Shown one piece after another: positions 32,546-61,107 of a DNA stretch of 64,000 nucleotides. The translations under genes and the position numbers were made by a program. Numbering within the stretch: position 1 is the stretch's first letter; every line of letters starts with the position of its first letter. The stretch lies in the NCBI RefSeq assembly GCF_020520425.1, contig NC_079491.1, positions 3,534,001 to 3,598,000 on the forward strand. Direction: 5' to 3'. The stretch comes from Spinacia oleracea (taxonomy: Eukaryota > Streptophyta > Magnoliopsida > Caryophyllales > Amaranthaceae). The notes under the pieces are model-generated. The model had not been told where the DNA came from. It saw only the letters and a program-made list of their open reading frames with translations, and did no database searches.

Positions 32546-34298
32546 TATTATAATAAAAAGATGTTCTAGACAACATTGTTAAAATATTTTTATTTTTATT
32601 TTAAACATATTATTGTCATATTGTAAATATTGTGATATTGAAGTAAATTCTTAGTATAATATTTTTTAGTCAATGATCTTGATGTATGCATAATATATCT
32701 CAAAAATTAGCCGTTATCAATCAATTGTTAGCATTTTTTAATACACTAACTCGGAAATAATGCATTTTCCATCAATTAGCCATTATCGATTAATTGTTAG
32801 CATTTTGTCAAAACAATCTCATAACCCATTCTAATACCACTTATTATTAGTATAGTATGAGTAAGAATTCAAAGAATATGTTATTATTATATCCGAAGTC
32901 AAAACATAAGAGATTAAGGTTGATGAATCATTGGCGATGTTGAAGATCATTATTTTGAATAAAACATAATATATAATACAAGTTGGGGGCAGATGTCCAA
33001 CATGGATACGACTAAGTAATACTTAAACAAATTATTCTCTCTTATTTGGATAAAGAATTATACTGGTATGTTATTATTTTCATTATTAAATTTATGAATA
33101 GGAATTTTGAATAATACTACGTAGAAGTCTGTACTATACCTAGGTGTAAAAAAAAAAAAAAAAAAAATCATTCTTCGCATATAAAACTTATTGCGATGAG
33201 ATTAAATACTTAGGCGCATGATTATTTTTTTTTTTAAAAAAAGTAGGGATACATAACATAATTGCAGTTAATGTTTTGACTAAAAGTATGTATATATATA
33301 TAAATAGAATAGATGTAGATATGCAAATTTACATTATATTCATTATACATATATAAAAAAAAAAATTTAAAAAATTTCTATATAAGTTAGTAAAAAAATT
33401 AATGAATTTTTAATTCTTTATGGATTTTTCCATATAAGTAATTGTTACCATAAAATTCATGAACTTAAATATGACAAAGAAATTATCTATTAATTAATTT
33501 TATATTAAAAGAGAGGTGAATCAATGAGTGACATTTGTCATCACTAGATTGATTTCCTCTCTTTTAACATATCTCCTTATATATGTTTATGTTTTAATTA
33601 AATTTTTACAAATTTTTCTTTTTATAATTTTTTTATACTTTGGTCTTTTTAAAACCCACATACATAGTGGTATTTTTAAAGCATAAGATACAACCATTAT
33701 ATACGGGGATTTTACAATGGTTGTATCTTATGTAGTTTAAAAATATCTAATAGATTTTTCTGAATGGATGTTATTTTGGTCGTTTGAAAATTTTAAATAG
33801 GAAAAACACTAATGAAAATATTCACTTTATATATGATGATTACGATCATATCTTAATTATTTATGTTATTTCTTCCAATAAAATAAAAATAATACTTCAT
33901 AAAGACGATATATACTTTTGCTCTGTAATAAAATAAAACATTAGATATACTTTGGGAGAAATATCTCACACCTTGGTAGAACTATTTTTGGAAGCAATTT
34001 ATCACTCATGGAAATTAAAAAAGATTTGTTTTAATTATTTTTATTTTAAGTTTAATTATTATATTAAAAGATAGGTCAATCAATGAGTGACTTTTGTCAT
34101 CACCATATTGGTTTCCCCTCTTTTAGTGTATTATATAGATTGATTTTTTTTTCTTGAATTAGTTATGATTTTATTAATTACTTTTAGTTATGTTTTGTAC
34201 TAATTTACCGCCTTACATGATACTCTGTACAAGTTTTAATTATTTAGGGTTGAAATTAATAAAGATAAGATGTAAATTAACAAAATTTTTTATTGTTA
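32546..34298. other. AT-rich spacer with two Helitron-5'-end-like hairpins
   Basis: Hairpin-forming blocks at about 33508-33562 and 34064-34125 share ATATTAAAAGA, TCAATGAGTGAC and CCTCTTTTA-type arms and resemble Helitron 5' regions. Matching 3' ends were not found. A near-perfect inverted pair (AAGATACAACCATT and AATGGTTGTATCTT) lies at 33685-33731. No gene seen. Confidence 0.45.
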
Positions 34299-34626
34299 AC
34301 AAAAGGTCTTGCGCGCACAAGGTGTACAATAAATTTATTGTACACCAAGATAACTTTTATGCAGTTTTTCGTAACTTTAACCTATTTTTCTGTAACTTTT
34401 ATATTATAAAATTAAAAAGTTGATAGATAAACATTTTAAAGGGTTAAATGATTAATTTATACATTATTAGTGATTTTGAAGAAATAATTTTTATTGAAAT
34501 GAAAAATTTTATCATTAAAAAATAGATAACTTTTACATATATAAACGTAACTTTTAAGTATTTTGAATCAACTTTTACTTCGGTGTACAATATTTATTGT
34601 ACACCCATTGTAAATAAGAATTTGTG
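34299..34626 (+). repeat. 328-bp repeat, twin copy A
   Basis: Starts ACAAAAGGTCTTGCGCGC and ends AAGAATTTGTG. Each end carries its own palindrome (GGTGTACAATAAATTTATTG... and GGTGTACAATATTTATTG...). Twin B at 35121-35448 has exactly the same length and differs at only a few positions. Non-coding; transposon class unknown. Confidence 0.85.
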
Positions 34627-34864
34627 TATTGTTAATTAGATTTTATCCTGTGTCGTGCACGTGTTATCACACGTTTTTTTATTTATTATTACTATTATAT
34701 TGTATATGTGATGATATAAAAATTACGAAATAACAGAACATGATGCATTTACATTTTTTTGAAATTGAAATTTAATGTGAAACAAAAAATAACAGTGTCA
34801 TAAAAGACATATAGTAACTTTTAAGGAGGAGAAAAGGGAAGGAAAATGATGATTTTACTTAAAA

Positions 34865-34887
34865 GGGGGGGGGGGGGGGGGGGGGGG
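34865..34887. repeat. (G)23 homopolymer
   Basis: Uninterrupted run of 23 G followed by AGGGG. Length may be affected by sequencing error. Confidence 0.9.
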
Positions 34888-34985
34888 AGGGGACATGTGA
34901 CATTATGTTACGCAAAATATTATGTTTTAACATGTTAGTATAGACTAGAAAAAATTATTTTTAAATTATGAATCTTGTAAAGATG

Positions 34986-34986
<1 letters not shown>

Positions 34987-35057
<71 letters not shown>

Positions 35058-35096
35058 TTAGACGCATCTTTACATATATATATATATATATATATA
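34987..35096. repeat. (TA)n microsatellite
   Basis: About 70 bp of pure TA repeat (34987-35056), then a short spacer and a second TA run (about 35074-35096) ending just before twin repeat B. Confidence 0.95.
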
Positions 35097-35120
35097 ACAT
35101 CTTTATATACATATATATAT

Positions 35121-35557
<437 letters not shown>

Positions 35558-35831
35558 CCCCGAACACATTGTTATAATTTTAATCGAACCAAAAAGAAAA
35601 AGTAACAACAACTTTTTTTCTTTAAAACTATTTTTATATAAATTAATTCAATGTTATTATTCCAAGAAATGCACATGATTAACAAATTGATAGGAGGTAG
35701 TTTTGCTAATTATTAAGCGCTTTTTTTCTCCCATTTCAATTCTTTTTTCGTCCTCGATCATTTTGCATTTTCTAGCTTATTTTTCTTAGTTTTGGATAAT
35801 TGTTGTAGTTGTAAATTTTAGTTAGATTATG

Positions 35832-36063
35832 TTCTGTTCACCTTATTTCCACTTATTTCAGGAACAATAAGTTCAGTTAAGTTCAGATAAGTTCAGTTAA
35901 GTTCAGATAAGTTCAGATAAGATAAGTTCAGGAAAAATAAGGGTTGACCAAGTATACTTTATAACTAAAATAAGTTTTGATAAGTTCTAATAAGTTTAGT
36001 TAATTTTAGATAAGTTCAGTTCAGATAAGTTCATGAAACATAAGTGAAAATCAGGTGAATAGA
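35832..36063. mobile_element. MITE with an internal GTTCAG[AT]TAA array
   Basis: Inverted ends TTCTGTTCACCTTATTT and AAAATCAGGTGAATAGAG. The interior repeats AAGTTCAGATAAG/AAGTTCAGTTAAG many times in a row. A related but diverged block is at 50775-51005. Confidence 0.65.
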
Positions 36064-37499: not shown

Positions 37500-39730
37500 A
37501 AATGTTGAATAGTATTGGTAAATGTGAAGGAAGATTTTTTTTATTATTATTATTTTAAAGAATTCGAATTTGGAATTTCCTAAATACGAAGTAATAACTA
37601 TATATTCAAGTTTAACCGAACCAAAATCACCCGGTCCAAAATTATAAGGGATCGGTCTCTGCACCAAGAATTTCTAGGATTTCGCTTCCGGTCCATTTCG
37701 GTTTTCGGTCCGGATCATAACGATTTCTGGTCCGGTTCACACTCCAACTAACTCTACTGCGAGTCTTTTCTTAATTGGTAAATTAGACGGTTATAAAAGT
37801 TGTGATGTTTTTCTCCTCAAAAAAATTATTTCATATTGATAGTTAGAGAAAAGGGACATGATTTTAAAATGACACAATCGAAATTTTAGTAGCTTTATAT
37901 TCACATGAAATAGATAAATATATACAGATTACTCCGAGTCTGCTTCAGTTGCTTCAACAATTGGGGTAGCAGGTGCATCACAAGCTTGTGGGTTCTGTTT
38001 TCCAGTAAGAACAGGCTTAACAAATTTACACGTTGAAAGCGCTGGACCATCTTTGCCATTGTATGTTAAGTCTATTTCAGTGAGTTCCACTTTGTCACAG
38101 GGTGTGTTGCTGCTACAAATTAGTTGCACTGCATCCTTTGTGCCTGATATTCCCTTCACGTTCTTGAATCGAATGTCAGAAATCTTAACTTTGGACGGGG
38201 TCTTTTTGTTGCAATTATTTTGGGGGCAATATTCTTGATCAACAATGACAGGAAATTTAACATTTTGGATAGTGATACCCTCAAAATACAGCAAAGTGGC
38301 AGAGGATTCATAAGAGTCAGGCCATGTTTTAACTCGAACACCATTCATAGTGTTATTGAATGTACAATCTCTTACAGTGATATTTGACACTGGCTCCTCG
38401 TTGGGGTATCTACCTAGACTCCCCACGCTAATTCCGTGGCCAGGACCACAAGTGACATTCTCAACAAGCATGTTCTTTGACCCATCACCGAAGGAGATAC
38501 AATCATCTCCAGTGCCAATCTTGGCTCCTCTAATGGTAATATCATTTGAACGTCCAATGTGAATGCCGTCCGTGTTAGGGCTGTCTCCTGGGGCGATTAT
38601 AGTCATGTCAGTCATTTCCACGTTCTTACACCCTTGGAGGGTCATGTGAAACAACTTGCTATTTAGTGAAGTTATGCCACTAATTTTTGAATTCGTTAAC
38701 GAGTTGAACCTAAAGTTCTGTAATACAAAGCATAAACAATTAGTTATTGTATTATTTTGCAAAAAATATTGACAATTTAGCATCCTAACATTCCTCTACC
38801 AAACATATATATTTCCATGATCTAAATCGGGCTTACATGAGGAAAGGAGTGGCAGCTGGTGTCATTCTGGATGCAATGGTTATTTTTCCAACCTTCTTGT
38901 CCTTGACCATCAAACACACCTGCTCCTTTTGGAGCTGTGATTGTTAGACTATCGACGTTATCTATCTCAAACCATGCATCTTCCCCCTTAAATGATTCCA
39001 AATTTGGAGAGGCCTTAAAATTGCCTAAAATTTCTATTATGGTTGGTGTCTGACATGGACCTTTAAGCGTAATGGGACCTAGCAAGTATTCTCCTTTAGG
39101 AACTAACACCTTGCTTCGTTCTTTTGATGCACATGCATCAGTCCACGCTCGCACGAAATCCTAAAATGATCAACAAACCAAATACTATCAATTAAAAAAA
39201 CAGAGTTTATAGATCGTATACGTAAGTAGCATTTTTTCAAATTCTAGTATGTATTAGATTACATCATGTTATGTGATGAAAAATGTCGCCTCATTTCTCA
39301 ATAAAAGTCATCCCATAAACCCTTAATTAGTTTCAAATATAGAAATTAGCTTCTCTTATGATTTTACATCGATTTTGTCGAGTATTCTATTACCTTTGCA
39401 ACATCAGTATTAGGCTTAGCTCCATTCTTGGTTATGTCAAATACAATGGTATCACCCGCAGGAACGAGCACACCTTTTATTCCTAGGATGAGCAAATAAA
39501 ATGCAAGGAAAAACAATGTGCAAGTGTAATTTGATTTAGCAGCCATTTTCTTCTAGCTTAGTTATAAATAGTTTTATGTGCATTTCTTTGTTAAAAAATG
39601 CGATTAATATATAATGATCCAGGAAAGCATAAAATTAGGGGATAATTTATTTAATTTTCTAAATACGGAGTATATCACTGGATGTAGAACAGAAGTTAAC
39701 CATAATCTATATTAAGATATTAATCTATTA
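37500..39730. repeat. Segmental duplication, copy 2 (contains polygalacturonase 2)
   Basis: Partner of 27480-29645, about 10.05 kb away in the same orientation. Introns and flanks are nearly as similar as exons, which suggests a recent event or gene conversion. Confidence 0.92.
37929..39546 (-). CDS. Exopolygalacturonase-like GH28 enzyme (copy 2)
   Basis: Same role as copy 1: secreted pectin-degrading exo-acting hydrolase. Exons 39546-39394, 39160-38837 and 38717-37929 have exactly the same lengths as in copy 1 and give 421 residues. Signal peptide ([16 protein letters not shown]) and GH28 motifs [26 protein letters not shown] and RVKTW are intact. Differences are scattered conservative changes, for example Asp at 196 (Tyr in copy 1) and Gly at 227 (Ala in copy 1). 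A 4-bp insertion upstream puts the ATG at 39583 out of frame, so MAAK at 39546 must be the start. Both genes could be active and may differ only in expression. Confidence 0.92.
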
Positions 39731-40900: not shown

Positions 40901-40990
40901 AACACGAAATTCAATTTGATTTAAGTTGGCGTAATTTTCTTGTATGCTCAAACTTTTCAGATCCCTCCCTCCCCCCATTTTCTGTTGAAG

Positions 40991-41086
40991 ATGGAAATTC
41001 AAAAACCAATTCAACAAATAAATTTAATCCAAAGAGGAAAAACCCTAGAAATTCGCACGAAAATTGCATTCAAAAGCTTAATTTAG
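40991..41086 (+). promoter_or_regulatory. Upstream ORF in the PP2C-kinase leader
   Basis: ATG at 40991 opens 31 codons and stops with TAG at 41084-41086, only 8 nt before the main ATG. A shorter uORF opens at 40954. Such uORFs commonly lower translation of the main frame; whether this one does is untested. Confidence 0.5.
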
Positions 41087-41094: not shown

Positions 41095-44000
41095 ATGGAT
41101 AAAACCCTAGAATTCCACGTATTGGGGCTTTGCTTATTCCTGTTAGTAATCACTTGTTATTCAGCTGAATCATCGACATGTTTGACAGTATATAAGGAAG
41201 GAGGAGCTCCGGCGGTGTTCAAATCCCCAAAATGCCCTCGCTGGAAGCTCTCCCATCACCAATCTCCGCCGGGAAGCTCCAGGTGTCATGTCGCCGTTCA
41301 TCAAGGTCGCCGGAGTTCGCAGGAGGATCGCATTTCATGTGCCCTCGATGTCAGAATTCCGTTCCCTGGTTCGTAATTCTGAAACTTATTTTTAATTTGC
41401 TTTCTTCGGTTAATATAGTCGGCCTCATCATCGGGATTAAGGCTTCGATATTGTTGTTGTTTTTGTTTCAATTTCACTTCTGATTTATCTGGGTAATGTG
41501 ATATTGATTGCAATTTTAAGCATGTGATTTCTTGTGTCTTGTGTTATTGTAAAATTTGAGGTGAAGAAGAGGTGGATTGTTGGCAATAGTTATACTACTC
41601 ACTCGGTTCCTAAATAAGTGTCCACTTTCAGAAAATTCACCGTAATTAAGAAATCTGTGGGTGTGTTTTTTGGGGAAGGGATAGAGTAGATAATTGTTTA
41701 TAGTACAAATAAAAGTGGACGTGGGGATGCAAAGTAGGAAAAATGTGGAATGTATAAGAAAAAACAATCATGATTTATGGAAAAGTGGAAAAAGTGTATG
41801 TCCAAAGATAGAAAGTGGACACTTATTAGGGAACGCCCGAGATAGAATAGTGGACACGTATTTAGGAATGGAGGGAGTAATAAAACTTTTAGGATAAGAC
41901 TGGTGTATACAATAACACATTTCCAAGATTCAAAGTATCCCGTTTTGAAAGAAAGAAGCTAACCAAATTGCTTTGAAATCACTGTTTTGCATAAGAAAAC
42001 TCGTGTGTATCAGTCGGAGGGAACAAAAGGCCGAACTTGTATGAATCAGTTGCTACTTGCTAGTGTTAATGATTCCTCCTAGTTTTTATTTTCTACATAG
42101 ATAGATGACTGTAAATATCTGAGATAATTCAGATGTTTTATGAGTACCGAAGTTTAATGATACCCCGTGGTTTCTAACTTACTTAAGTTGTGGAGCAGGT
42201 CCTAGTGGATTTACAGAGGTTGATGTGGGCATTGTGGCCGTTTTCGATGGTCATAATGGCTCCGAAGCTAGTGACATGGCTTCAAATCTTTTGTTGGAGT
42301 ACCTTATTCTGCACACTTACTTTCTTCTTGATGCAACATTTCCTTCCTTTTTAAAAAAATCCATGGGAAGATTGTCAAACAAGGAAATTGTTACATTTTC
42401 TTCTCAATTCTTCAAGGATAGAGAATGGATTCTGCATTTTATCGATCAGCAGAGGTATCGATTTGACATGTTCACATCCTGCTTTTATTTTTTCTTTTAT
42501 GTCTTATGTTCATGCATCTCTTGTTAATCTTCACCACCTTGCCTTTGTAATATGCTCCAGGATCTTTTTGTTCATGACGAGTACCCTATTGTACATTGAC
42601 TAACAAGGTTGATGAGTTATGTATGAGTGCCACCAATTTTTCATTAAATAGGGGGAAAAGATTTAATATGGACAATATTATGCTCTGAAGTTAGTTAGAA
42701 AGATACTATGTGAGTATATGCAGGCTCTGTTCTTCCTTCGAGGTTCCTTGTGTCTATTGGGTTAAAATTTAAGAGATAGATGCAAACTGTATTGCCTAGT
42801 CTTTCTACAGATACCTTAGCAAAAACCTATTTCTGTATAAAGAACATAATTGTAGATTAAAATCTTGGTTGTTTGGTATTGTTGGTCATAACTTTTAACA
42901 AGTAGAATAGGGACATGTTTGTGTAATTGTTGTTTTACGTAATGTTATGTGGTTTTAGGCATAAGTCTCGAGAAATGTTTGGGGAATCATTTCATTTGGA
43001 AATACTGAAGGAAGCATTGTTAAGAACAATCACTGACATTGACACCACATTTTCCAAGGCAAGTTTCATTATTATTCTTTTCTAAATTGAAGTTGCCTTT
43101 CCAGCATAAAATTCTGTTTATAGTTGACAATCATTTGATTGTGACATGAAGGAGGCCCTCAGGTTCCACCTTGATTCGGGTTCTACAGCCACAGTTGTTT
43201 TGATTGTAGATGGTCAGATATTGGTTGCAAATTTAGGAGACTCAAAAGCTCTTTTGTGCTCAGAGCAGTATCAGCCTCTTTCTGAAGCTAAAGGTAAGTT
43301 TATCTTTCCTGAAAGCACACTTTTTCTTTTGATATGTTTATAATACTCCGTAATGAGATAGAATTAACCATCTTGTTTAACCCATTGTCCTATGATGGTA
43401 TCTTGAGTGCAAGTAATATTATCCTTGCAGGCTATTTTGTTTTGCTTTGACCATATGCTGAAAGTCTATTTTGCTGGGACTTTGCAGCCACTGCTTTAAG
43501 GATATATAGGCAAAAAAGACGTAACGGTGCTGTATTGCGATTTAAGGATTGCGAAACATGTAAAATAGTGGCTTCCAAGGGATTAAAGCTTTTGGTTGTG
43601 AAAGAATTGACTAGAGATCATCGGCCAGACAGGGATGATGAGAAGTTCCGAGTTGAAAATGCTGGTGGTTATGTTGTTGAGTGGAGTGGAGTTCCTCGTG
43701 TTAATGGACGTCTTGCTGTGTCTAGGGCTATTGGGGATGTGCCTTTTAAAAGGTGGGGTTTACCTATGAAAGAAACTTAACTATGCAAGCACAATCCTGT
43801 TGATTTGGTGTACCTTTTTTTTTCCTCCGGTGGGAGGTTTCAAACTACTTCACAGTGACATTCTGAAATCTGGTTGATTGTGGTTTTTTAATTGTTGTAT
43901 ATGTTCTGGTCTGTGCATTTATTATTGACACTTCTCCAGAAAACTGTTAAGGATCATATATTATTTTTTAATGGTTGCCAGATATGGTGTTATAGCTGCT

Positions 44001-47000
44001 CCAGAGATTACAGGTTGGCAACTCCTGAATGACAATGATAGCTACCTCATAGCTGCTTCTGATGGTGTTTTTGAGGGGTTGGACACGCAGGATGTCTGTG
44101 ATCTGCTGTGGGAAGTCCAGAACGATGACCTCTCAGGATCACATGTCTCGCCAGCCTGCTCAGATTCTTTAGCTGATTGCATAATAAGCGCTGCCTTTGA
44201 GAGAGGGAGTGCAGATAATATGGCTGCTGCTGTGGTTCCATTAAGATTAATGAGTTTGTCGAATACCTCTCTGAATGGTAAGTTTTTTTTAAAAAAAGTA
44301 ATAAGAGGTATTTGATCACATTTTGAGGTCATTGTAACTGTGACAGACAGGTAATTTCCATATTGACATGGACTATGGATTACTCTTTCTATCGAAGAAT
44401 TAAGGAATTTGAGTTATAACTTGAATATGGTAGTGAGCTATGAGAATAGATAGAACTCAGTGAGATGGTAAATTTATCCTTTTCTTTGTTACGTTCTGCA
44501 TAACTTTTTCTTAGAGGAGCCTGTCTTCTTTGATCCATGCAATCTTCTGTCTCTATCTCTGTTTAAATAAGTCATTGTTCAGGAATTTAATATGAAACAC
44601 AACCTAGACAAGCGTGGCATGAGAAATTAAGTTGTTAGTTCATGGAGAAATCGTGGCTGAGATATATTTTTATTCAGTTAGCTTTCCAATATCAGATATC
44701 AATATTGTGCCTCATGCAGACTTTTTTGGTCATTGATTGGAAATAACTTCTTTCCACAGTATTGTGATTGGAAACAAGCCCAAATATTTCACATACAGTT
44801 ATTTCCAGTCAGGTTCTATTTGGACTTGTATTTCTTGGTTCTGGAAATTTCGTCAAAGTTTTCCGAGTAGCAAACGAGGCCAAATTGATGCATTTCACAA
44901 CTTTTAATACTTTTGTAATCTTCTGTAATGAGATATAGCGGACACGTTTATTGCCCATGTGCATTCCTTTCTTCAATCATACATTTTTATCTACCTATTC
45001 ATAGCATAATTCTTTAGCAATATTTTATCCTACCTTTTTTATGACAAACTTTCAATCCTCATTGGGGTTTCTTGAGCTCTATTCCAAGTTCATGCCATGG
45101 AGATGGTCTTTTGATATTTTCTGAAATTACTGATGTGAATACAAAATTTTAGAAGGTTTTCTCATTAAACTAGTGAGTAATGACTGATTATTTTGCTATG
45201 TTCTATAATCATTGTCCAATTTCCTGTGTAGCAATATATACTATGCTTGCTTTCTAGTGCTTTCTGTACTAGTGACCACTTGATGGCGCACATTTATTTG
45301 GGGAGTGAAAGGGTACTGTTACATGACCTATTAATTTATCCCTGTGTTTTTGTCATTCTTCCTAGTCTTACCATGATTGGTCTCTGAAAGTGACACAGAA
45401 ATTCTTCTTTTCTTTTGTCAATGGTTTAGCTGAAGAAGTTCCTATCAGCCTTGTTCAACTGAAACATGCTTATCCAGTTGTGGCAAAGTTTGCCAGATTA
45501 TTGGTAAGAATTAGGAACATGACTTTATTTTCTTTTAAGGTACCCAGAGTTCATTTTAAAAGTGAATATGGTCCTTGAAATAATAGAGGGATAAAGTCTG
45601 CATCTTCTAAAGGAATAAGTTATTAATTATCCAAAATGGAAGTTAGAATTTAGTTTAATCCGAGTTACAAAGGCTTATTTTCTATTTATCACTTTTTTGT
45701 TGTGCGGACTGCTTTTTCTAACTTCCCCTTTTATTTCTTATCAGAGTTCCCGTTCTAAAGTTTTGTAAACTTGCCTGATCCCTTTCCCGTTTAGAATTGT
45801 CATCCCCAACGAGTCCTTTTAATAAAACCTTTGATTTGTACAAATGACCATACTCTTAAATTCCTCTCCGAGCTTCTATTTTATTCTTTTCTCTTGGTTG
45901 CCCATTTCTGATCATACATACAACCTCTTATTTTCTACAAACTGAAAATGCTATTGGCCTTAGCTACCTTTCAGTTGATGTACACAGTATATACGAGTAT
46001 GTGACTTGAAATCTAATCTTTCTAATTAATCGTATTAGTGCAAAACATGGTCTATTAATGGGTGAATTCCAGAATATTCCCCAGTAACATGCTTTGACTA
46101 ACGGATACAGAACAAAAGTTGAGTTAGTAATCCTTCGATCATCTTGCATTTTATATCTCAGATGAACGGGTGGCAAAAAAAAAACTCATTTTCCTTTTGA
46201 TGTCTGGTCAATTTCTACAGTTCTACTCCTTTGAAATACATGGCTATTGAAGAAAGATGTATCTCCTGAGTCTACCTCTTTTGCTACTGTGATTTCACTT
46301 GGACAAACTCTAATACTGTAGCCTGTAGGTACTGGTTATATTTTAAATGCTACCATTTCCGAAGAACAAAAAGTAGCGTGTGTCTGTTTTCTCGAGTAAC
46401 ACAAAGTCATCGAAGTCTGTTTTTTCATGTCATTAAAATGATTAAACAAAAAGAAGTAATTTAAAGTTAGAGGATTTAAGTTTGGCCGGATTCCTTTGTC
46501 ATATGTGGCAGGTTTTCCAAATAAAGTATTGAATGTCATTTTTGCTTCAGGTGGAAAGCAAGGAAGATAATTTTGGCTGTTACTATTTGTACGAGAACCT
46601 TAAGGAAAATGAGGAGGATACATTTAGTCATCCAGAAGATGAAAAATCAGAAGATTTTTATGACATCCCTCCTGCTCTACCTGGGCGTCTCGATCATACC
46701 TGTGGTGAGTGGAGCTTCCCCCAGGTTTTGTGTCTGTATAACACTGAATACAATGTGTTCTCTTGCCTCCCATTATTCTTTTCTCTTCTGTTCTTAAGGT
46801 AGGAGGACAGAAAGGGACTGTTGTGGGAAATTTATCCTTATATACACTTTATCAAGCAAAAGTATTGTTTATTGCAAGTTTTACATAGTTCTAAAATATG
46901 TGAAGCATGGCTGTTTACCAATGGAATTAGGAGAATCTGTGAAATTAAATGTGGAGAACTCCTTTTGCTTTCATTTTGGGATGATCTCCGATGGAAGCAG

Positions 47001-50000
47001 AGATGAGAGCAGATATCCTGAAGATCTTTCCAGTTTCCTTGCTCTGCTTGAATCAATCCCTCTTCAGCATGCTGAATCGAGTTTTGGATCATTTGAGGAC
47101 GTGAAGCCTGAAATGAGGTATAATCTCTTTTTTTTTCCCACTCGTTGGAGTAGCCAATAATTTTTAGGAATCTGACAATCTGTGTATTTTTAATTTTCGA
47201 GCCCTCTGTTAAATTTACCTTTTAAGTGTACAAACCATTGAAATGGAATCAAAGACTACTTTTTCTTTTTCATAATGTCAACAAGGGGTGAAAAGGAACA
47301 CTAGCTTTTCTTCTTCAACTTTCTCTTTCTCTTTCTCTTTCTTGTTCCTGATTTTCTTATTTTTTTTAATGTTTCTGGAGCAATTGGTTTTCCCCTGAAT
47401 GGATTCAAATACTAATGTTCTTTGTAAAAGAGTTTAAACTATAAACTTTGAAGCCTTTTATTTGACAAGGTGATAGGCTTAGGATTAATTTAGAAGAACA
47501 TTTTCTTAACACTTGTATTAATGTAATTGTAGATCAAGAGATAGATTCTTGGAATTTCGGTTCATGTAGCCGAACCCATCTTTTGGCAACATTTTTTTTT
47601 TTTTTTGTTATTGTTAGTGACTTAGCGTAATTGTGGACTTGCGATATGGTGGAAATGTTTACGATCTAGTGCCAAATAATTGTACAATGTAGGACACCTT
47701 GGTGAAGTGACAGTGACGCATGCGCCCGCGGACACACACACTTCTGTTCTGTGGGGTATGGACTTGGAATGTAATATGGGATTGTTAATCAGCAGTACAA
47801 CACTATGCTTAGTAATTTTTTTTGGCAATATGCGTTAAAAGACAATTACCAAGCAGAGAAATTTAATTTTCCTCGTTATTAACTGGCTAAATTATGTGCT
47901 TCTCTAACTGCTGTCCTCGGAACTTTCTCAATGCAGCAAACCTTAAAATGGTCGCCAGAACCACAATCTCTTCGCAGAATTTTGACCTCAATTTCTTGCT
48001 TTGTTCGTAGTAGAGCTCAATTTCAGTTTTAAGTAAACTAGTGTTTCATTGCTTGTGGGTTTTTTAAGTTAGATGAAAGTTAGACAAATTTGTCAGAATA
48101 GTGATAACCAATCCCTTTTGACTTTTATATAAGGCAACTTACTACCTCCACTCTTCTTAGAGCTTGAGGTAATGTAGCTTGCTAGCATTGGTGAAGGAAC
48201 ATTGGATGATTCCATTGTCTCAAATGCGTGTTTTAAGGAGGGCTTGTATAAAGCTTTCCATGTAGAGGGTGCTTTTTTGGTAGCTAAATCATAGATGATC
48301 ATATTGCTGTTGGTTTTTCAAATAATAATCACAATGCTGCTCTTCCTTGAGGTGAAATTAATCTATTCTGATCCTTAATTTGATAGGTATATTCTAAGGA
48401 AAAGATTCGGCCAGGGAGCGTATGGCGAGGTTTGGTTGGCTTTTCGATGGAATTGTTCTCAACGAGATAATGCTCGTAACTGGAATCAGAATAATGGAAC
48501 TTTTTCCAGACACCATCTTAATATGGAGTCATTTGATGACATTTCAGGAAACTTTTCATCAAGTAATGATTGTCCTAATGGCTCCTCTGATGGTAACTTA
48601 TTCATTATAAAGCGCATAATGGTAGGTTTTACCGTCTGAGTACTTATGAATAATTTCTGTAACCTTAATTTAATGTCTTTGTTGTGATCCTTTCTCCTGC
48701 ATGCTGCTAAGTGCCCAATGTCATTCCACTCTTTTGACTTTAGCTTTGTGATCATACTTTTTTTTCCTTTTGTCATTCTTCAAAAAAAAATTCTTCCATG
48801 TGACGTGCTTGGTAAGTTGCAATGAATTTCTTTTTCCGAGTTCATTTGTTTGCAAGCTTGGTAGATGATATTATGTGTGCAATTTGAGTTAATCAAAGGC
48901 TTATCATCATGTACCATAAATGAATTGTCAGCTATCAGTTTCATTAGTGCCGTGTGATTGACCTGAATGTGACATTTAATGGATGTGACAATTTATCAGC
49001 TTAAATGCAAGTATTTAGTTGAATTCTGTTATAAACAGGTGGAGAGAGGATCTGCTGTTTACTTAAGTGGGTTGCGAGAGAAGTATTTTGGTGAAATATT
49101 CTTAAATGCTTCAACATCTCTTGGAGGGTTTGTATCATCTACTGTGTCAAGCTCTGTATTTAGAAAACCTGGAGCCAATCTATATGGTCCCTTTGGAACA
49201 GATAAAAATCATAAAATTGTTGTCCAGGAGAGTGAGGACTCTGAGAATCCTGAAGATATGTTCATTCAAGGAAATGGAACCCGGGCAGTGGTTTATGAAG
49301 AAGGCCTCGATCATATTGCAAGATATGTGGAATCCTTCGAGTCTCGTTCTAGTGAAATATGGCTTGTGTTTAGGCATGAAGGCATATCTTTGTCAAAGCT
49401 TATGTATACAACCGACGATATTGATGAAATTTCTTCAAAAAGAGCTGGACATGCTCAAGTATTGCACCCATCAAAATGGTGGCATTGGCTTAAGACCACA
49501 AAAGCAGGACAAGAGGAAATGCGAAGTCTTATCTGGCAATTGGTGCGTGCTTATAAATGTTTCAAACGCAACGCTGTTATTTGAGTTGTTTCATTCGGTT
49601 ATTCTATTCAGGTTGAACATACTCATTTCTTTTTTAAAATTTAAATAAAAAATGAAGTGGAACTTGCTTATGCTAGATAGTTGTCTGATACCCGAATGCT
49701 TGTCTTGTCTATACTTGAGTTCGTAACAGCAACTGGAGTTTCATGTATTGAGTTTGTGTGTGCATTTACAGAAGTCTTTAAAATTTATCTGTTTTTTACC
49801 TTAAGACTATAACCTTTATGGGCTTTCTGTTTGTTTCTTACTTGCAGTTTCTTATCATTATTACCTGCATTTCAGTTCTTGTGTTTCTGAGATAACTCCT
49901 TTGTCTTGTCTCAGTTGATGGCACTTAAGTCTTGTCATGACCGTAACATTACCCACAGAGATATTAAACCCGGTGAGTTTATAGATACCTTATCTGTGTG

Positions 50001-53000
50001 ACTACTGACTAGCCATTTTGAAAGGGTGATGCATAATCTCTCTATTATGTTTTTTTTATACTCCGTAATAACTAAAGAGAATATTTGAACATCATAGAAG
50101 GCTTCGAAATACTTATTGATAACTGTTTATAAACTATCCATCATTTATGAGATAAATATAGCATGTCAGGATGACATTGGGATTTATTTTATTTTATTTT
50201 TAAATTTTAATTTGTTATATTTTTTCTCTTTACCTACTAATGGGTTCTATTCGTATGGGTTATTCGGTTATTCCTGCAATGACATGGAAAAAGAGTTAGC
50301 TTAGTTTGCATGGATCTGTTTCTTTGGAGTTTGGACCTTATGAGTAAACTATGTGATTGGTAAATTAGCAATCTTCTTTGTCAAAGCTTTATTTCATATA
50401 CATTTGGATAAAAGTAATGTTGTGAATAATTACACTATGTGTGTAATTAAACTAGTATTCACTCCATTTCATTTTGATATTAGAGCCAAAACTCTGACCG
50501 TGAATTTTCACCAATATATAAGAAATTATATTATCATGTGGAATCTCGTTAGATTCCTCTTAATGTATAGTTATGAATATTAAATTTGTGTAATTTTCAT
50601 CTTAACACAGTTAAAGACTAAAGATATTAGTGGTTAGATATGTGCATTGAAAACTGTGGAAAAGCAAATGGGAGTTTAAAATGAAATGGGCGAAGTACTA
50701 TGTAGTGTTTAATAATATTCAAAAATAAAATTGTAGAATGATATTTTCCTCCCTTTCTGAACTCCTGCTATGTTAAGACCTTGTTTGTTTTCGCCTTAAA
50801 AAAAATCAGATAAAATAAGCTCAGATAAGGAACGATAAGTTTAGACTTTAGACAAAGTTCAGATAAGGGCCGGTAATTTAGGTAAAGGCTATTGGAGTTC
50901 AATTCACAACTAAAACAAGCTCAGATAAGAACCAATAATGCCATACTGGTTCAAATATGGGCTGGTAAGTTCAGAGAAGGGGCAATAGGGTGAGAAAAAC
51001 GAAGATGTGATGTTTAATCTTGTGACTGGCCTCTCACTGTTTTGTTTGTTATTTCTGTCTGCGTCTCCGAAATTGATACAGAGTGGAAAATGTTCATCCC
51101 CATTTCTTCCTTAACATTTTTGGTACCACTGGTTTTTTTTGGTTGATCTATGGAGGATGCCTATTTTGACACTTTTTGTGGATCCTCCCTCTAAGATCTT
51201 ATAATTCTTCCCTATCTTGTTTATTACGAAGTATGTTTTAATTCTAACAAGTGAACCAAGGGAAAACAACCTTATTTATGTATATTAAAATTCTTTCTGG
51301 GTGTCATTAAGTTCACATTTTGGGTATTGAATTTTGATCTCAAGTCATATACTTCGTATTTAGTTTTGGCTCTTGTATTTGAATTAGAATCCTGTAATGA
51401 TCTGTGAATGTGTTTGTGCAGAGAACATGGTAATCTGCATTGAAGATCAGGATACAGGAGAATGCTTTAAGGGAAAACCAAATGGAGAGCTCAAAGATGG
51501 GGGAAGAATGTATGCACCTCTTTCATAGTATTCCTTTTTCTTTCTTTTTTTTATTGAAGGTTTCTATTTATGAAAATGGAATTGTGCTCTGATGTGCATA
51601 GTTAGTGCTCCTGCTTCTTGTTCCATGTTAACCATGGATTGTAATTTGACTGGTTGGATGTATCGGTAAACCCTTTCCTTTGTTGATTTGAAAGTTCTAA
51701 TCCCATCCCACAGCACTGATCCATACTCTAGTAATGTCGAGTAATATTGTTTCAATATTGATTTTTATGTGGTATGTTCGATGTGACTTCGTTACAAGAT
51801 GATTTGTCTAATCTTTGTTTAGATTGCTCTTGGACGAACTCCGTCTTATATAATGAAATTTGACTTGCTTTGGTGGATGTTGGTCTGTCAGGCGTATTAT
51901 TGACTTTGGTAGTGCAATTGATGACTTCACCATAAGGCGTTTCTATGGGTTTCGAGGCCCGTCTAGGTACTTGTCAAACTTTAGAATTTAGATCTTTGTA
52001 TTTCTTCTTAATTATCGTTCATTTATAATCAGAATTGTTATTCACATTTCAATTTCACGTCTGGTTTAACTGTTGTATTTAGATCATATGAAGTATGATA
52101 TGATGCTGTGTTAGAGTTCATAGGCGTATGTTTTTAAGTTATTTCTTTATCCCCTTTTCTAAGTAGGGTCAATTATTATGATTTCTGTGGACTACTGAAA
52201 ATATGTTTCTTGTCCTAAATAAGTAAGTCCTTGTTTATGCTACTTAGCTTAGGGTAAATTCTTTGGAGGATGGGTCCCAAGAATGGGAACAGATATCATT
52301 TGTTTCTATGTGATTTTGAGATTTTCTTTTATGAAGCTCAGAGGCAGTTAGATCCTTGCTGTCTGCTTGAATGCTCATCACATGTCAGCATTTCGGCCAC
52401 AATCTAATACTGCACTAATTTTTTAATCACTTTTTCGACCCCTCAACCACTAAATGTGGGAATAGAAAATAGACAAGAGTCTAATCCTACTCTATCATTT
52501 CAAACTAAACATATTGAACTAGTAATTTTGGGAGAGCGAAAATAAAATTAAGGATCTCATCCAGATGCTATATCAAATTATGAATCCTATATTTGAAGGT
52601 TTTATGTGAATCCATAGTCAAAATATACTTTTCTCTCGTATTTTCTGGTGTTATGGCTTACAATTTTCAGTTTTCTCAAATACAGAGCTGAGCAGACATA
52701 TGAGTACACTCCCCCTGAAGCTTTATTGAATACTACTTGGTTTCAGGGACCAACAAGCAAAACTCTCAAGTATGTCAAGCTTCTGAACATTTTCTTCAAG
52801 TCACAAGCCCATGCCTTTTTGTTAATCACAAATACACAACACAATGTTGGAACAATCCAAATTTGAAGCACATAATTGCACTTTGCCCCATAGTGTTTTC
52901 CAGATACATCGGTTCTAAGTTCTTTGTTGACAGGTACGATATGTGGAGTGTTGGAGTAGTATTCTTGGAGATGGTATTGGGTTCACCAGATGTTTTCCAG

Positions 53001-56000
53001 ATTAGCTCTTTATCCCATGCCCTTCTGGATAAGCTTCTTGGAGGATGGAATGAAGACTTGAAGGAGCTTGCATATAGGTGAATTCCGTTGTAAATTTTGA
53101 TGGTTGTATTATCATGCATTTTCCACCTACCCTCACATGAATGATTCATTCTACTGATATGCAAATCCTGGGTTTCTGCCATCATCAAAATTCTGCATGG
53201 AGAAGGATTTCATCCCCATTAATGCTGACATGTTGTCCACTTGTCCTGCTAGCCTTGCTGTTAAAAATGTTTGCCTTTTCTTGATTATCATTTAACCACG
53301 TCAGATACTTAATGGGTGTTCTCTACCAATAATATATGTTGAATAATTTGCCCAGGAGATAGAAATGTCTGCTATGGTCAATTGTTAGTCTGTTACTCAC
53401 AAAAAGTCTCATGGAAAGTCCGAGATAGTTTTTTTATTTTTTTGTAATAGTGCTGCATGCTTCTGTATTAATACCATTTTGATGTCATGGTTTGTTTTAA
53501 CATACAAATGATACAGTTGAAGAACTGTGGATTAAGTTTGAAATGGAAATTTTGAGCATGTTGCTTGTGTGATTGTCTGACTTTAGGTGGGATTCTTGAG
53601 GATTAATAGTTGAATGGTAACCAGTGGGGAAGCATAAGAAATTTTCTTCAATATTTTTGAGTTTGTGTTTGCATGAGCTATTCTCCATTTCATTTCACGT
53701 GAACCCAGTAGCTGCACAAATATTACGTATGTTGTTGAATGATGCTAATTTATTGTTTTAACTAAGAATCATGTTAAGACCGTACTAGCAAGAAACATTT
53801 GCGGAGAAAGCTTTCATTGCTGATACGTTGCTACTTTTTTCCCCCTCTTGTCCAGGCTTAGGTCCTTCATGGAAATGTGCATATTAGTCCCTGGCCATTC
53901 CACTACACATCATCCTGGCAAGGGTCCACATGACCAGGTGAATATCTCATGCTTATGTAGAATTTGTTTTGGGTTAACCTCGTACCTCTTTTTTCCTTAT
54001 TGTACAATGATCAAGATAGTGATTGGTGACAGTGTACAAGTCTGTTTGCTCCTAGATTGTTCCAGAGTGCCTCATGCTCTTTATTTGATTTTATTTGGGC
54101 CCCACTACCTTTTTAAAAAGATTTTACTTGACATAATAATTTTTGGTGGGTCATGAACTCATGATTGCATGACTATTTTGGCTCACGTAGTTGTTGTGAT
54201 TTGCACGCTCAATGAGCCATCTCCCGTGGTTGGGAATTTGGCTCTCATCTCACCCTTAGTTTTAAAAAGCGCTCCTTGGGTGTGCCTAGGCTCAAGGCGC
54301 ATATCCTGGCGCCTAGCCATGACAGGGTCATGCACCCTACAAAAGGTGTGCGCCTTATGCGCCTTTCCCAGGCTCAAAGCGCAGCGCCTTATGTGCCTTA
54401 TGGTATAAGGCTCCAATTGCAGATAAGAGATAAGTAATAATTTTTTTTAAAAAGGCCAAAACCACATGACTTTATGGCTAACAGTTAGAAATAAAATACT
54501 ATATTGAAAGGAGGAGAGAGAAAATCCCAAATTTCTTCATTTTTTCTTGTCTCTAGACTACTCCTTTTTCTTTTTTTAAAGTAGCTGTGTTATATAAGGC
54601 GTGGTGCACTTCTTTTGAGAATTTAAATACAGAATCAATTATAAGAAAGTGACTAAAAAGTTACTTGAACCTTAATCCCCTTTTTGTTGTTTTTTTTCCC
54701 TCAAAAAGTTTTTAATTTTTCTATAATTACGATATTACCCCTTTGTAACAGCAAATAATACTATTTTGATTTTCTTCTACAGAAAATAAGTACCAAAAAA
54801 AAATAAAAAAAATTACTGTGCCTTGTGCCTAGGCTACAGGGACTTTTGCGCCTTTTAAACTAAGATCTCACCCCAACTTATGGGTTGGGTCGAATTCATT
54901 GTCATTCTACTGGATTTGGTATCTAGTTTCCAGCCTTATGGTTATTGGGGACTTCCTGTCTATTGGTTTCACCTGCTCGGTGCTCTTCCCCAAGAGCGAA
55001 CAGGGCTTGTCCTCTAGGGATGGTTAATTACCAGATTAGGTAAAATAAGGTTGTACTTGTGCTTGGAAATGGAAATGCCAATTTATTCAAATGTGCTGGC
55101 TCAGTCATGTACCACATGAATATCTGCAGGCTAAAGCTTCACCAGCTTCATGGAAATGCTCTGAAGAATTTTTCTCAAACCTTATAAAAAGTAAAGATCC
55201 TCTTAATATAGGGTACGCTACCGTTACTCATCATCATTTGGTAACATATTATGCACTTTTACATCATATTGATCAAGTTATAGACATTCGAGCTTAATTT
55301 ACAATGTCAGCAGGTTTCCGAATATCTGGGCCATGCGTCTAGTTCGACAGCTACTACGTTGGGACCCGGTAAGGTTCCGAAAGTGTTATTTTTTATATTA
55401 ATTTGGTAGTGTGATTTTCGTTTACTCATCACTCTACTGTAAGTGGATATAAGCACTTTCAAGCAAATATATTAAAGTCTCTATTCTGCTCCAAATATGC
55501 TTCAATTTTCTCTTTCAAAATTTCATTTCCATGAAATATAGAGCATGTATTTTTTTTTTTACTTCGGCAACTAAATAGAAAATTGAAGCATGAAAGAGTA
55601 GCTAAAAAGATTGAATAAAAGGGCGACATAATGCAGCTTTTTGCAGAAACTCCATGAGTTTCTAGGTTGAATGGTGTGCAACTTCATATAGCTATCTGGA
55701 CATCTGGTGATATTGATCTTATTTTCTGCATATTATCGTTTTTACGAACTTTTATATAAAACGGTCTTACGCAAAAGACCCTCTTGGTGTCATATATGTT
55801 AAGCAATTGAACCAATTAGTCAAGCAATAAAACCAATTAGTTAAGCAATGGAACCAATTACTTAATCGTTGGAACTAATGCACGGGAACCAATTAGTTAA
55901 ACAATGGAACTAATTAGTTAAGCACTGAAACTAATTAGGTACTGAAACCAATTAGGTAGCACTAAAACCAATTAGTTAAGCAATCAAATCGGTCTTTTTG

Positions 56001-56158
56001 GTATGGCGGTCTTACACAAAAGTTGCCGACTTTTAATTTTGGGTTATCAACTGTTTTATATTGTACAGGTTTTTATTCTCATGTTCTATGTACAGGATGA
56101 TCGATTGACTGTTGATGACGCTCTGCAGCATCCTTATTTTCAATCACCTCCCAGCTGA
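41095..56158 (+). CDS. PP2C phosphatase-protein kinase fusion with N-terminal signal sequence
   Basis: Twenty exons give one 1086-residue frame: 41095-41368, 42199-42454, 42959-43058, 43152-43293, 43488-43752, 43982-44277, 45430-45503, 46551-46704, 46889-47117, 48387-48621, 49039-49542, 49915-49972, 51422-51509, 51892-51966, 52686-52769, 52934-53077, 53856-53937, 55130-55212, 55314-55368, 56096-56158. Residues 8-21 are a hydrophobic signal-like segment, followed by a Cys-containing YKEGGAPAV module. The PP2C domain (65-432) keeps GRRSSQED (Asp78), VFDGHNG (Asp108), [34 protein letters not shown] (Asp373) and GSADN (Asp424). The kinase domain (597-1080) keeps the Gly loop GQGAYG, Lys672, THRDIKPEN (Asp859) and DFG (896-898), with PPE in place of APE. 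Resembles, from memory, Arabidopsis AT3G63340. Intron 3 is GC-AG. Exon 9's 5' edge is least certain. Confidence 0.88.
41598..41877. mobile_element. Stowaway MITE in intron 1 of the PP2C-kinase gene
   Basis: Inverted ends CTCACTCGGTTCCTAAATAA and TATTTAGGAATGGAGGGAG, flanked by TA on both sides. Non-coding. Confidence 0.88.
50775..51005. mobile_element. Diverged MITE in intron 12 of the PP2C-kinase gene
   Basis: Carries repeated AAGCTCAGATAAG/AAGTTCAGATAAG motifs like the MITE at 35832-36063, between TTGTTTGTTTTCGCC and GGTGAGAAAAACGAAG, which are imperfect inverted ends. Confidence 0.5.
54262..54857. mobile_element. MITE-like element with AAAAGGCGC-type ends in intron 17
   Basis: Imperfect inverted ends: AAAAAGCGCTCCTTGGGTGT... 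on the left and ...GACTTTTGCGCCTTTT on the right, each with a GCCTAGGCT motif. The interior is AT-rich and non-coding. Confidence 0.5.
55757..56024. mobile_element. Element with internal ~21-bp minisatellite in intron 19
   Basis: Between ACGGTCTTACGCAAAAG and GCGGTCTTACACAAAAG, about nine copies of an ACCAATTAGTTAAGCAATGG-like unit run in tandem (55801-55985). The two flanks are direct rather than inverted repeats, so the class is unclear. Confidence 0.6.
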
Positions 56159-57086: not shown

Positions 57087-60000
57087 TCAAGTATTAACAT
57101 GAGTACTTAGTGGAAGTAGAACAACAGACAAGTTATCAGTGCTGCCTTTCTCATACGCCATATTCACTATACATTCGGCCAATGACGAGGATTGGCATTT
57201 AGATGATCTCCAATTCTTTCGGCCTTTACCCTGAGATCGTGCATCGTGTAAAAGACTGCAAACCTCTTGTGTGCTCAAACCCTCAAAGATGCCGTCAGAC
57301 GCAACCACCAGGAAGACTTTACTTGCATCCAAATGGTGCCAATCAACCTCTGGTTCTGCTATCACCCCATATCTGACAAGAAGTACAGCATAAAATTATT
57401 TATGTTACTTTCAGGTATGAGGAATTCAACCATTCATACATCTCACAAGTCACAAGATATAAAGTCCCTCCGTTTCGAAATAATGGGGACGGTTTCCTTA
57501 AATTGGTATTTCAAAAGAATCAAACTAGCATACACTCGAAGATGTGAATATCAGCTAGCCTAGTTTGTAAAGATTTAAGGGTTCCAAACTTGTCTACAAT
57601 TATATTTCTCTTTTTGTGTCATTATGAATTTTGTATGCAAAAACAAAAAAAGCATACTTAAAGCGGAGTACGGGAAGCAAAGTTTATGCCTATTTTAGAC
57701 AAGGACAGCAAATCTGTTGGATTTGGTCCTTCAAAGTGTTCCTAAACTCCTAAAGTTTAGGGACACATGTTAATTGTTAAGTAAACTAGTTAGTGGCAAG
57801 TTATTAGGTACTAGGAAGTCAGTTTAATTGTTTAGTTGAGTTAGTGGGTTATTAGTGGACTACCATGTAGGCCATGAGCAATTAGTTCCCAAGTTTCAGT
57901 TAGTTAATGCACTTAGAGCATGTTTGGTATAGTACTTTTCAAGTGTTGGAAATGGAAACAGTTAACTAATTCCATTACCTATTGTTTGGTATGAGAGATG
58001 GGTAACACACTCCATTTCTAAAGGGTAACCATTACCACCAATTTGTTACCTCTCCTAACCTTGTGGTAACAAAGTGTTACCCTCCTTATTCCCTAATTTG
58101 ATACAAGGGATTGTTTTCCTTAGGTATACCAAACAACAAATAATGATAACACTTAACATTACCATTTCTCCTTAAATGTTTCCAATCCATTTCCTTTCCT
58201 AGATTCATACCAAACTTGCACTTAGTCTATATAAAAGGCAATTTCTTGTATAGATTGGATTGAATGAAATATAGTATAATTTTGCTACATTCTTTCCCCT
58301 CTCTCATCTCTATTTTAATTTCAACAAAAGCTAGGGCTACCTTTTCTCAAGGCATTAGCGGAAAGGAAAGTGTGCAGATCAGTTACCTTTTCAAGTACAA
58401 GTCACCAATTGATCGGGATACAGCGAGAATGCCATTAACTCTAGGCACTCCCAATAGAGAAACAAACCCCCCCGAAGCTGTTATGCGGGCGTTTTCGTCA
58501 TCTCTATCAGGATGATGATCTTTAGTTAGGTCTATGACTTGTAACCTGGTCATGGGGGTACCTATAATAATTCAAGGTACTAAATCAAAAGGGTAAATTG
58601 TTTTTTAACACCTAAAAAAATTGACAAATTGTTTTTTACCACCTAAAATAAAATAAAAATTGTTTTTCACCACCTCTTAGCCGGAAAGATGGACGGAAAC
58701 GTTATGCGGATCCATTTCAACGACTATATTTTTTATTTTCTTCTCTTCTCCCACGATTTTCATGTATATAAGCTACCATTTTCCCTAACTTCCCATTAAT
58801 TCACATAACGTTTTCGCCCATCTTGTAGTTAAGAGGTGGTAAAAGACAATTTATATTTATCATCATCAATGACGGAATCATTATAACCAATTACCAAATA
58901 GCTAGAGATATGCAGTCCATCAGTGACGGAATCATTATAACCAATTACCTTGGTTGTGTTTATCATCATTATTTTGCATCACCTCTGAACATAAGAATGC
59001 CTTTGAATCACCAACATTTGCAACCAGTAGTTCATTATTCACGAGAACAGCTATGGTGGCTGTCGTTCCAGATATCAGATGTTTTCTTAAGGCCACCTGC
59101 AATGCCGGGTGAACAATGAAAATTATTTCTCATTTAGAAACCTTCATAAAGTATAATCAGGTTTCTAGATGAAGATAGTGATACAAACTTGAGAAAATGT
59201 TGAATCAATGTCGTGAATTGTCAGGGTAATTGCTTCCTGTATAATTTCCATTGTCTTCGATACATTCATGCGCCTGAAACGGAGTACAAAATGATCGCTT
59301 TATTCAGATACACCAAGTCATATTTTAAAGGAAAAGTGTAAGCGTACAAGATTTCAGCATATTCAATGCTGATGAAGACTCAAATCTACAGTGAAATCAT
59401 GAGAAAGTTCAGAGATGGAAAAGGCACACCCATAACAAAATCCGCAGTCAATAATTTCAGAAATGATAAGTTCATGTAAGGCCAATAATTCAGATTAACA
59501 GAGATTAGGAAAAATGAGTTAGATTAGGGCCAGTAAGCTCATATAAAGAAAATTAAGTTCATATAAGAGTTTTTCAGGACAAAAATGAAGCTCAAATTTT
59601 TTATAAAAAAAATAGGAAAACCCAGATGAAGGTATGTAAGCACTATAATGTAGAAACCAAGTAAAAAGTACAGCTTCCTGGTTTCTTGTCCTAAATTGAT
59701 CAGCATTAACCTTCTAAAATGCGTCTCCAAGGAATTGAACTCCGTTTCCAATGGGAAAGCCATGTTGTGCATCTCTTCAAAGAGATCCATTTCTTTTTTA
59801 CTTAAAAAACTAATGTGAAGTTGAAGATAGTGAGAAAGGAGTTGAACAGCCAATTCACTGGCTTCCTTACCACCATGACCATCAAATACAGCTGCTATAC
59901 CAATCTTCAGGTTTTCTTGACCTAAGTTGCCTGCGTTAAAGTCAAATCTTATGATTTCTTCTCCACAAATCAAATTCTTCTGTTTCTAGTCCTATCTCGA

Positions 60001-61107
60001 AATGAAAAACAGAATCTTTATCAAGTTTTATAGGTTCAAATTGATGCAAGCAGCAAATGTTTGAATTAAACTGACCATCATCTTAAATAATCATGCTATT
60101 GTCCAAATGTCAAAGATTCTGTTTTTGCATAGCTCACACTCATCAGCACGCTGATAATGAAAAGGAAAGCATAACATTCTGCTCATGAAGTAATAATGTA
60201 CAAAAGTCTCGAGCAGAAAACATCCAAGACGGAAGGCGAAGGCATCATATTGTAATTGTACTTCGTATTAATGCTCTGTTTGGTTGGCGTAAAACATTTT
60301 TAATAAAAAATGATTTTCCATGCAAAACTTTTTTCAAGGAAAAACACAGTTTCAAACTAGTTTTCCTTTGTTAGGTTCCTTACAAGAAAATTAATAGAAA
60401 AAGGAAAATGGTTGAAGATTGATGGGAAAAAGAAAGATGGGGGCAAGAGGAAAGATGGAAAAGTGGTTTCCCTTCCTTTTAAATGGAAAATATTTTTCCT
60501 CCTTCGAGGAAGTTATGGAAAATTGTTTCCATACCTTGTCAAACCAAACAACGGAAAATGATTTAAAAGGGGAAAATTGTTTTCCACGAAAATGTTTTAC
60601 ACCCTACCAAACGGAGCCTGAGTTGAAAATATATGAAAAAACCATGCATCGTTTGGTATTATAAAAGCAGAGAACATAAATTTGAGGTACCTATAACACA
60701 GTTCAACTAAAAAGTATACACTGTATTCACTAAACATTCTAGAAAACTGGAAAGGAAAGCATCCAAATGCAAGGGTACATGTGTGCAACAAAAAAAGAGG
60801 CAAACAACTGATGAAAAGAAAGGTAGCAGGATCAATTACCAAGAAGATCGATCTGCATATCGAGATCACATAAAACCCGATCTTCCTGATACTTCCTTCG
60901 TCCCTGAAGTGAAGCAAACTGGCATTTGGTTGTATGATTATGTTCCCTAGGAAGAATATACTGAAAGGAACATTCTGGGGAATGAAGAACAGCTGGAGCA
61001 CCACCTTCTTTGTATAGTCTGATACAGGATTCAGACCTGCCATAACATCCTACTATAATGCTGGAAAAAACTCCAACCAAACAGCACACAATCTTGAATT
61101 TTTCCAT
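57087..61107 (-). CDS. PP2C-type protein phosphatase with N-terminal signal sequence
   Basis: Metal-dependent Ser/Thr phosphatase, paralogous to the PP2C half of the convergent gene. Exons 61107-60840, 59930-59672, 59273-59189, 59096-58949, 58537-58387 and 57372-57087 give 398 residues. Residues 5-22 are hydrophobic (signal peptide or anchor), followed by [17 protein letters not shown], nearly the same module as in the neighbour. Metal-binding motifs are intact: QGRRKYQED (Asp76), VFDGHGG (Asp106), [27 protein letters not shown] and GSTDN. It has no kinase domain and lacks the ~45-residue loop before LT[KR]DH. The exon 4-5 junction is the least certain. The leader seems to contain an 802-bp intron (61139-61940). 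The true ATG is 61107; the preceding in-frame codon is TTG. Confidence 0.85.
57715..58326. mobile_element. Solo-LTR-like fossil in intron 5 of the PP2C gene
   Basis: Starts TGTTGG and ends CAACA, with a TATA-like CTATATAAAAGG near 58227. Flanking 5-mers are similar but not identical. No internal region or second LTR. Likely a Copia-type LTR-retrotransposon remnant of about 303 bp, enlarged by the MITE at 57917-58217. Confidence 0.5.
57917..58217. mobile_element. hAT-like MITE nested in the solo LTR
   Basis: Inverted ends AGCATGTTTGGTAT and ATACCAAACTT are flanked by a perfect 8-bp duplication GCACTTAG (57909-57916 and 58218-58225). 301 bp, non-coding. Confidence 0.8.
58659..58850. mobile_element. 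Foldback element in intron 4 of the PP2C gene
   Basis: Arms TTGTTTTTCACCACCTCTTA...GTTATG and CATAACG...AAGAGGTGGTAAAAGACAA are inverted; the centre is AT-rich. Non-coding. Confidence 0.7.
58864..58949. repeat. Direct duplication of the exon 4 splice donor region
   Basis: A 32-bp sequence (CATCA[AG]TGACGGAATCATTA...ATTACC) occurs at 58864-58895 and again at 58918-58949. The second copy ends at the inferred exon 4 border and contains its GTAATTGG donor, so two equivalent donors stand 54 bp apart. Confidence 0.85.
60273..60617. mobile_element. MITE in intron 1 of the PP2C gene
   Basis: Inverted ends GCTCTGTTTGGTTGGCGTAA and TTTTACACCCTACCAAACGG (then AGC), with GGAAAA/TTTTCC-rich interior. 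No target duplication seen. Non-coding. Confidence 0.7.

Follow-up and report, generated by a model that had tools for sequence, protein, structure and literature searches.

The locus analysed here raises the question of whether a plant gene encodes, in one chain and behind a secretory signal, both a PP2C-type protein phosphatase and a protein kinase, or whether the two enzymes are separate products or lie on the cytosolic side of a membrane. To our knowledge, the phosphorylation of secreted proteins in plants has largely not been assigned to particular enzymes, and a kinase with an intact active site behind a signal, seemingly present in a single copy and coupled with a phosphatase, would be a concrete, testable candidate for this role. 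Should the gene give two products or a cytosolic protein, it would be an ordinary PP2C locus of a little-studied kind; the point that deserves testing is whether such a pair of kinase and phosphatase, both intact, has a secretory location. The DNA under study (hereafter, the window: 64,000 nucleotides, contig C5, positions 3534001-3598000) comes from the genome of Spinacia oleracea (894 Mb in 242 contigs). Our preferred reading, to which we give an even chance, is a single protein of roughly 1086 aa that combines PP2C and kinase, is of the rice Os11g37540 kind and related to Arabidopsis AT3G63340 by locus layout, and would be routed to the secretory pathway.

Gene model and catalytic domains

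Exon-by-exon rebuilding of the gene gave a single frame of 20 joined exons (41095-56158, plus strand) with a 1086-aa product that comprises, from N to C terminus, a hydrophobic N-terminus, a complete PP2C domain, a linker and a kinase (Table 1). The continuous 20-exon frame claimed in the first-pass annotation was thereby reproduced, with splice phases and frame intact throughout. GT-AG boundaries are found in 18 of the 19 introns, intron 3 being GC-AG (donor 43059). For exon 9, an acceptor at 47003 (yielding 1048 aa) was dropped for one at 46889, which has the better context by eye and adds 38 residues that carry no coding score; with this choice the previously claimed numbers of Lys672, HRD Asp859 and DFG Asp896 were recovered exactly.

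Table 1. Positions in the window of the exons of the PP2C-kinase gene and of the neighboring PP2C-only gene
Feature	Position	Strand	Content
Exon 1	41095..41368	+	ATG, hydrophobic signal (aa 1 to ~24), N-terminal extension with Cys29/47/64/82, PP2C motif GRRSSQEDR
Exon 2	42199..42454	+	PP2C DGHNG motif, Asp108
Exon 3	42959..43058	+	PP2C; GC donor after it
Exon 4	43152..43293	+	PP2C, GDSKA
Exon 5	43488..43752	+	PP2C; ~27 aa with CxxC, missing in paralogue
Exon 6	43982..44277	+	PP2C, Asp373 and Asp424; phosphatase domain ends
Exon 7	45430..45503	+	Linker; coding score weak
Exon 8	46551..46704	+	Acidic linker; coding score clear; in-frame ATG 46533 just upstream
Exon 9	46889..47117	+	Linker; core 47003-47117 coding by score, 5' extension 46889-47002 not
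Exon 10	48387..48621	+	Kinase Gly loop (605-610), insert with four sequons, Lys672
Exon 11	49039..49542	+	Kinase N-lobe, second insert, hinge region
Exon 12	49915..49972	+	HRDIKP, Asp859
Exon 13	51422..51509	+	Kinase
Exon 14	51892..51966	+	DFG, Asp896
Exon 15	52686..52769	+	PPEA (APE-like)
Exon 16	52934..53077	+	YDMWSVG
Exon 17	53856..53937	+	Kinase
Exon 18	55130..55212	+	Kinase
Exon 19	55314..55368	+	Kinase
Exon 20	56096..56158	+	C-terminal residues, stop
PP2C-only paralogue	57087..61107	-	6 exons, 393 aa, convergent (tail-to-tail), hydrophobic N-terminus
Paralogue exons	61107-60840, 59930-59711, 59273-59189, 59096-58949, 58561-58387, 57372-57087	-	Intron phases as in the main gene

Both catalytic residue sets noted earlier, phosphatase first and kinase second, are present by motif and by profile match. 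The phosphatase part matched PF00481 (PP2C) with 144.8 bits against a cut-off of 20.3 (4.9e-42; Pfam, 1048-aa form) and contains the motifs GRRSSQEDR (71), DGHNG (108; DGHGG in the paralogue), ASDG (371) and GSADN (421), including the acidic residues (E77/D78, D108, D373 and D424) expected to bind the metals in PP2Cs. Its closest solved structures by sequence are PPM1K (4.7e-27) and Protein phosphatase 2C 16 (7.3e-27), and that of the kinase is CLK4 (4.2e-14). In the kinase part, the Gly loop, Lys672, HRD Asp859, DFG Asp896 and an APE-like motif were found, and long extra loops lie within the domain. The intact sequence matched PF00069 (Pkinase) over profile positions 87-263 only (89.2 bits, 3.7e-25; Pfam, 1048-aa form), and after excision of five loop stretches (196 of 491 residues, leaving 295; three N-terminal and two C-terminal to the catalytic loop) the match covered positions 3-263 of 263 with 128.5 bits (3.9e-37). 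As far as sequence can tell, the phosphatase and kinase active sites both look intact. No Fam20C- or VLK-type secreted kinase was named in the top 60 of the 877 solved structures matched by the kinase, and PF00027 (cNMP-binding) had no match in the 1048-aa model (E<=0.001) or in the 153-aa linker (E<=10).

The same features bear on a highly improbable alternative, by which the gene product is made with one of its domains catalytically dead or dispensable and acting as a scaffold. The long extra loops of the spinach kinase would fit it, as would a precedent in PMC11775391, where the kinase domain of PP2C19 is dispensable for phototropism; the presence of the main catalytic residues of both the phosphatase and the kinase argues against it.

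Upstream of the gene, a 31-codon ORF (window 40991-41086) stops 8 bases 5' of the main ATG, and a second upstream ATG at 40944 opens a 14-codon frame; these are possible uORFs, provided that the transcript starts before them.

One product or two

Support for the linker was sought with a codon score in which the tested exon was left out and the null consisted of overlapping open windows from introns of the same gene; because these windows overlap, the proportions given below are not proportions of independent trials. About 400 codons of a PP2C-like frame at another locus (L025), which we take to be POLTERGEIST-like, were added to the training. By this score exon 8 and the exon 9 core are coding (0 of 207 and 0 of 646 null windows as high, respectively). 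For exon 7, 17.6% of 1874 null windows were as high, and for the exon 9 extension 41.6% of 646, which is intron level, so that both pieces depend on frame and splice signals. Three undisputed short exons failed as well (exon 3, 17%; exon 12, 25.5%; exon 17, 11.7%), and the score consequently has little power on short exons; for exons 1, 2, 5, 6 and 11, the introns hold no open window of that length.

Overall, the continuity of the frame favours a single PP2C-kinase protein, which would be translated as one chain. The competing possibility, a rather unlikely but live one, is that of two products: exons 1-6, perhaps with part of the linker, would give a secreted PP2C, and an internal start would give a kinase of its own in the cytosol. 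It could draw on retention of intron 6, after which the PP2C would stop within about 12 further residues (ORF 43929-44315), on the ATG just upstream of exon 8, which is in frame, directly 3' of an in-frame stop and 18 nt 5' of the exon, on Met596 just N-terminal to the kinase Gly loop, and on the lack of a clear coding score in exon 7. Against this possibility stand the frame and splice phases, unbroken across PP2C, linker and kinase, and the linker itself, coding by score in exon 8 (flanked by good splice sites) and in the exon 9 core.

Published gene models point both ways. In the accessible part of a 2008 survey (PMC2612031), three PP2Cs hold a kinase domain, including rice Os11g37540 (OsPP2C76), and the architecture is not new since this rice protein is already in print as a PP2C with a kinase. 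It resembles the spinach protein in having PP2C and kinase domains and in length (1116 vs. 1086 aa), and its fused model comes without full-length cDNA evidence, whereas AT3G63340 is given as a 528-aa model with a full-length cDNA, outside the three kinase-bearing PP2Cs (PMC2612031). The naming of AT3G63340 as a protein of this architecture in the first-pass annotation is thus at odds with the survey, which lists the kinase domain for Os11g37540, and a PP2C-only product stays a live rival. The survey, in the same part, judges AT3G63320/AT3G63340 (AtPP2C50/AtPP2C51) a tandem duplication; they form a PP2C pair like that in the window, to which they are presumably orthologous judging from layout, but AT3G63340 differs from the spinach gene in its length and in having no kinase domain listed there. 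On the other hand, fusion in the rice model speaks against two products, and survey models can be short: AT2G20050 (AtPP2C19) appears at 514 aa without a kinase (PMC2612031), and a kinase domain was later reported for PP2C19 (PMC11775391).

PP2C19 and rice PKG resemble the spinach protein in having the PP2C N-terminal and the kinase C-terminal, but differ from it by two cNMP-binding domains and a plasma membrane location; for rice PKG, phosphatase and kinase activity have both been reported (PMC11775391). A search of the spinach genome for its PP2C19/PKG gene, intended as a control, was given up: the best 2 of 20 cNMP hits look like potassium channels, and loci L038 and L039 were left out. In AT2G40860/Os01g36080, the kinase probably precedes the PP2C. 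We also take Os11g0586001 to be the same gene as Os11g37540. The AT2G40860/Os01g36080 proteins likewise unite PP2C and kinase in one chain but are much shorter (658 aa; PMC2612031), and Os11g37540 is named again in a Brachypodium survey (PMC4776448). Other papers give a LogFC of AT3G63340 of 7.7 (4 C) and 6.7 (10 C) (PMC11597575), roles of At3G63320 and At3G63340 in stomatal opening/closing (a peanut paper citing Pang et al. 2020), the PP2C gene Os11g0586001 as no more than a candidate in pre-harvest sprouting (a rice QTL paper) and PP2Cs with a Pkinase domain in bacteria, the last three statements being found among PMC9911800, PMC7391406, PMC9138534, PMC12222183 and PMC12088040. Titles and opening lines of abstracts among the matches listed give neither location nor activity of the PP2C-kinase protein; within the literature searched, no paper names At3g63330 and none brings together PP2C, extracellular, Fam20C and plant.

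N-terminal signal, topology and sequons

Hydropathy was evaluated by simple sliding values for both paralogues and one control from the same window, a set of secreted-polygalacturonase-like reading frames with a signal-like N-terminus (37929-39552, minus strand). The best 12 N-terminal residues averaged 3.01 in the main protein (2.60 in the paralogue, 2.72 in polygalacturonase) and the best 19 residues 1.92 (2.08 and 2.30, respectively). Beyond residue 40 no second membrane-like stretch was found by hydropathy, the 19-residue maximum being 1.44 (1.40 in the paralogue). The signal-like N-terminus that had been proposed holds up in these values: it is hydrophobic, is mirrored in the paralogue and is followed by no further membrane-like stretch, so that both enzyme domains would end up luminal or outside.

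Sequons were compared with shuffles of one sequence in six segments, without correction of the P values. They are in excess in the mature protein (11 vs. 5.52 expected, uncorrected P=0.016) and in the kinase part (8 vs. 3.23, uncorrected P=0.0094), and not in the PP2C part (3 vs. 1.77, P=0.26), the linker (0 vs. 0.51) or the paralogue (3 vs. 2.50, P=0.47). Six of the eight kinase sequons fall within the two N-lobe inserts or at their margins; the first insert is borderline by itself (4 vs. 1.71, P=0.057). Sequon NIT854 abuts the catalytic HRD, an awkward position for a glycan. The alignment of the main PP2C part with the paralogue contains no sequon common to both. Among the PP2C loci L001-L008 intended as controls, only L004 (1 vs. 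0.69 expected) was kept, its frame having the length of its hit; the other seven were dropped because the longest frame had been taken rather than the frame of the PP2C hit. The PP2C-like frame of L025 had 3 vs. 3.9 expected.

Taken together, the signal, the hydropathy and the sequon excess of the kinase provide moderate evidence, drawn from one sequence, that the enzyme is luminal or secreted. Charge at the N-terminus of the main protein is close to neutral, which makes its orientation uncertain, and an uncleaved anchor with N outside and C inside would leave both domains in the cytosol as a membrane-tethered phospho-switch. The positive-inside rule gives no decision here for the main protein; two lysines precede the hydrophobic stretch in the paralogue (vs. 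one in the main protein), favouring a C-terminus outside, and with the sequon excess of the kinase part this leaves the anchored form improbable.

If the PP2C-kinase protein is indeed secretory, its N-terminal signal would route it into the pathway and both domains would face the lumen or the exterior and could there add phosphate to cargo and take it off; the phosphatase would probably act on its own kinase as well. We hypothesize, in other words, a self-contained phospho-switch. More tentatively, and with somewhat less than even confidence, plants may possess a conserved luminal or apoplastic kinase with an opposing PP2C in the same chain and a PP2C-only partner adjoining. Such a luminal kinase-phosphatase would be a plant counterpart of the kinases in the animal secretory pathway, one that carries its own eraser.

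The PP2C-only paralogue, copy number and a captured gene fragment

The adjoining PP2C-only gene shares with the main gene the intron phases 0,1,2,0,1,2 and one motif. The two proteins are 47.1% identical in the aligned mature part (171/363) and 36.8% in the signal (7/19), and four post-signal cysteines correspond (29/47/64/82 in the main protein, 28/46/62/80 in the paralogue). Genome-wide, scoring of the best 49 candidates gave 10 kinase matches at E<=0.001, every one of them in the PP2C-kinase locus, a count that leaves distant kinases outside; the kinase part is apparently single copy within reach of this search. Close matches of the PP2C part elsewhere (81-89% identity) are gene pieces on a mobile element, the next gene in the list being the paralogue. 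In viral contigs, two pattern matches to relatives were obtained and none was confirmed.

The captured fragment (window 43688-44291) covers the end of exon 5, intron 5, exon 6 and the start of intron 6, and is carried at loci L032-L035. A DNA search with it listed 11 further matches, three of them near full length (87-88% identity), five being pieces of intron and one measuring 68 bases, with one locus occupying two rows. The four element copies are about 5.5 kb long (6.9 kb in one copy with an extra insertion) and mostly 96.7-99.2% alike, apart from one 250-base stretch of L032 at 89-91%. In each of the three copies examined at both ends, CACTA stands at the start of the element and CTACTAGTG at its end, with a 3-base target duplication; we read it as a putative CACTA-type mobile element carrying a captured gene fragment including an intron. 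Within the main gene, a stretch of intron 1 (about 41597-41882) has cctaaataagtgtccac and its near reverse complement at its two ends, and looks like a miniature inverted-repeat element. Elsewhere in the window, positions 32001-36000 are very AT-rich (GC 0.22-0.23), with self-complementary repeats near 34978-35063 and 35513-35559.
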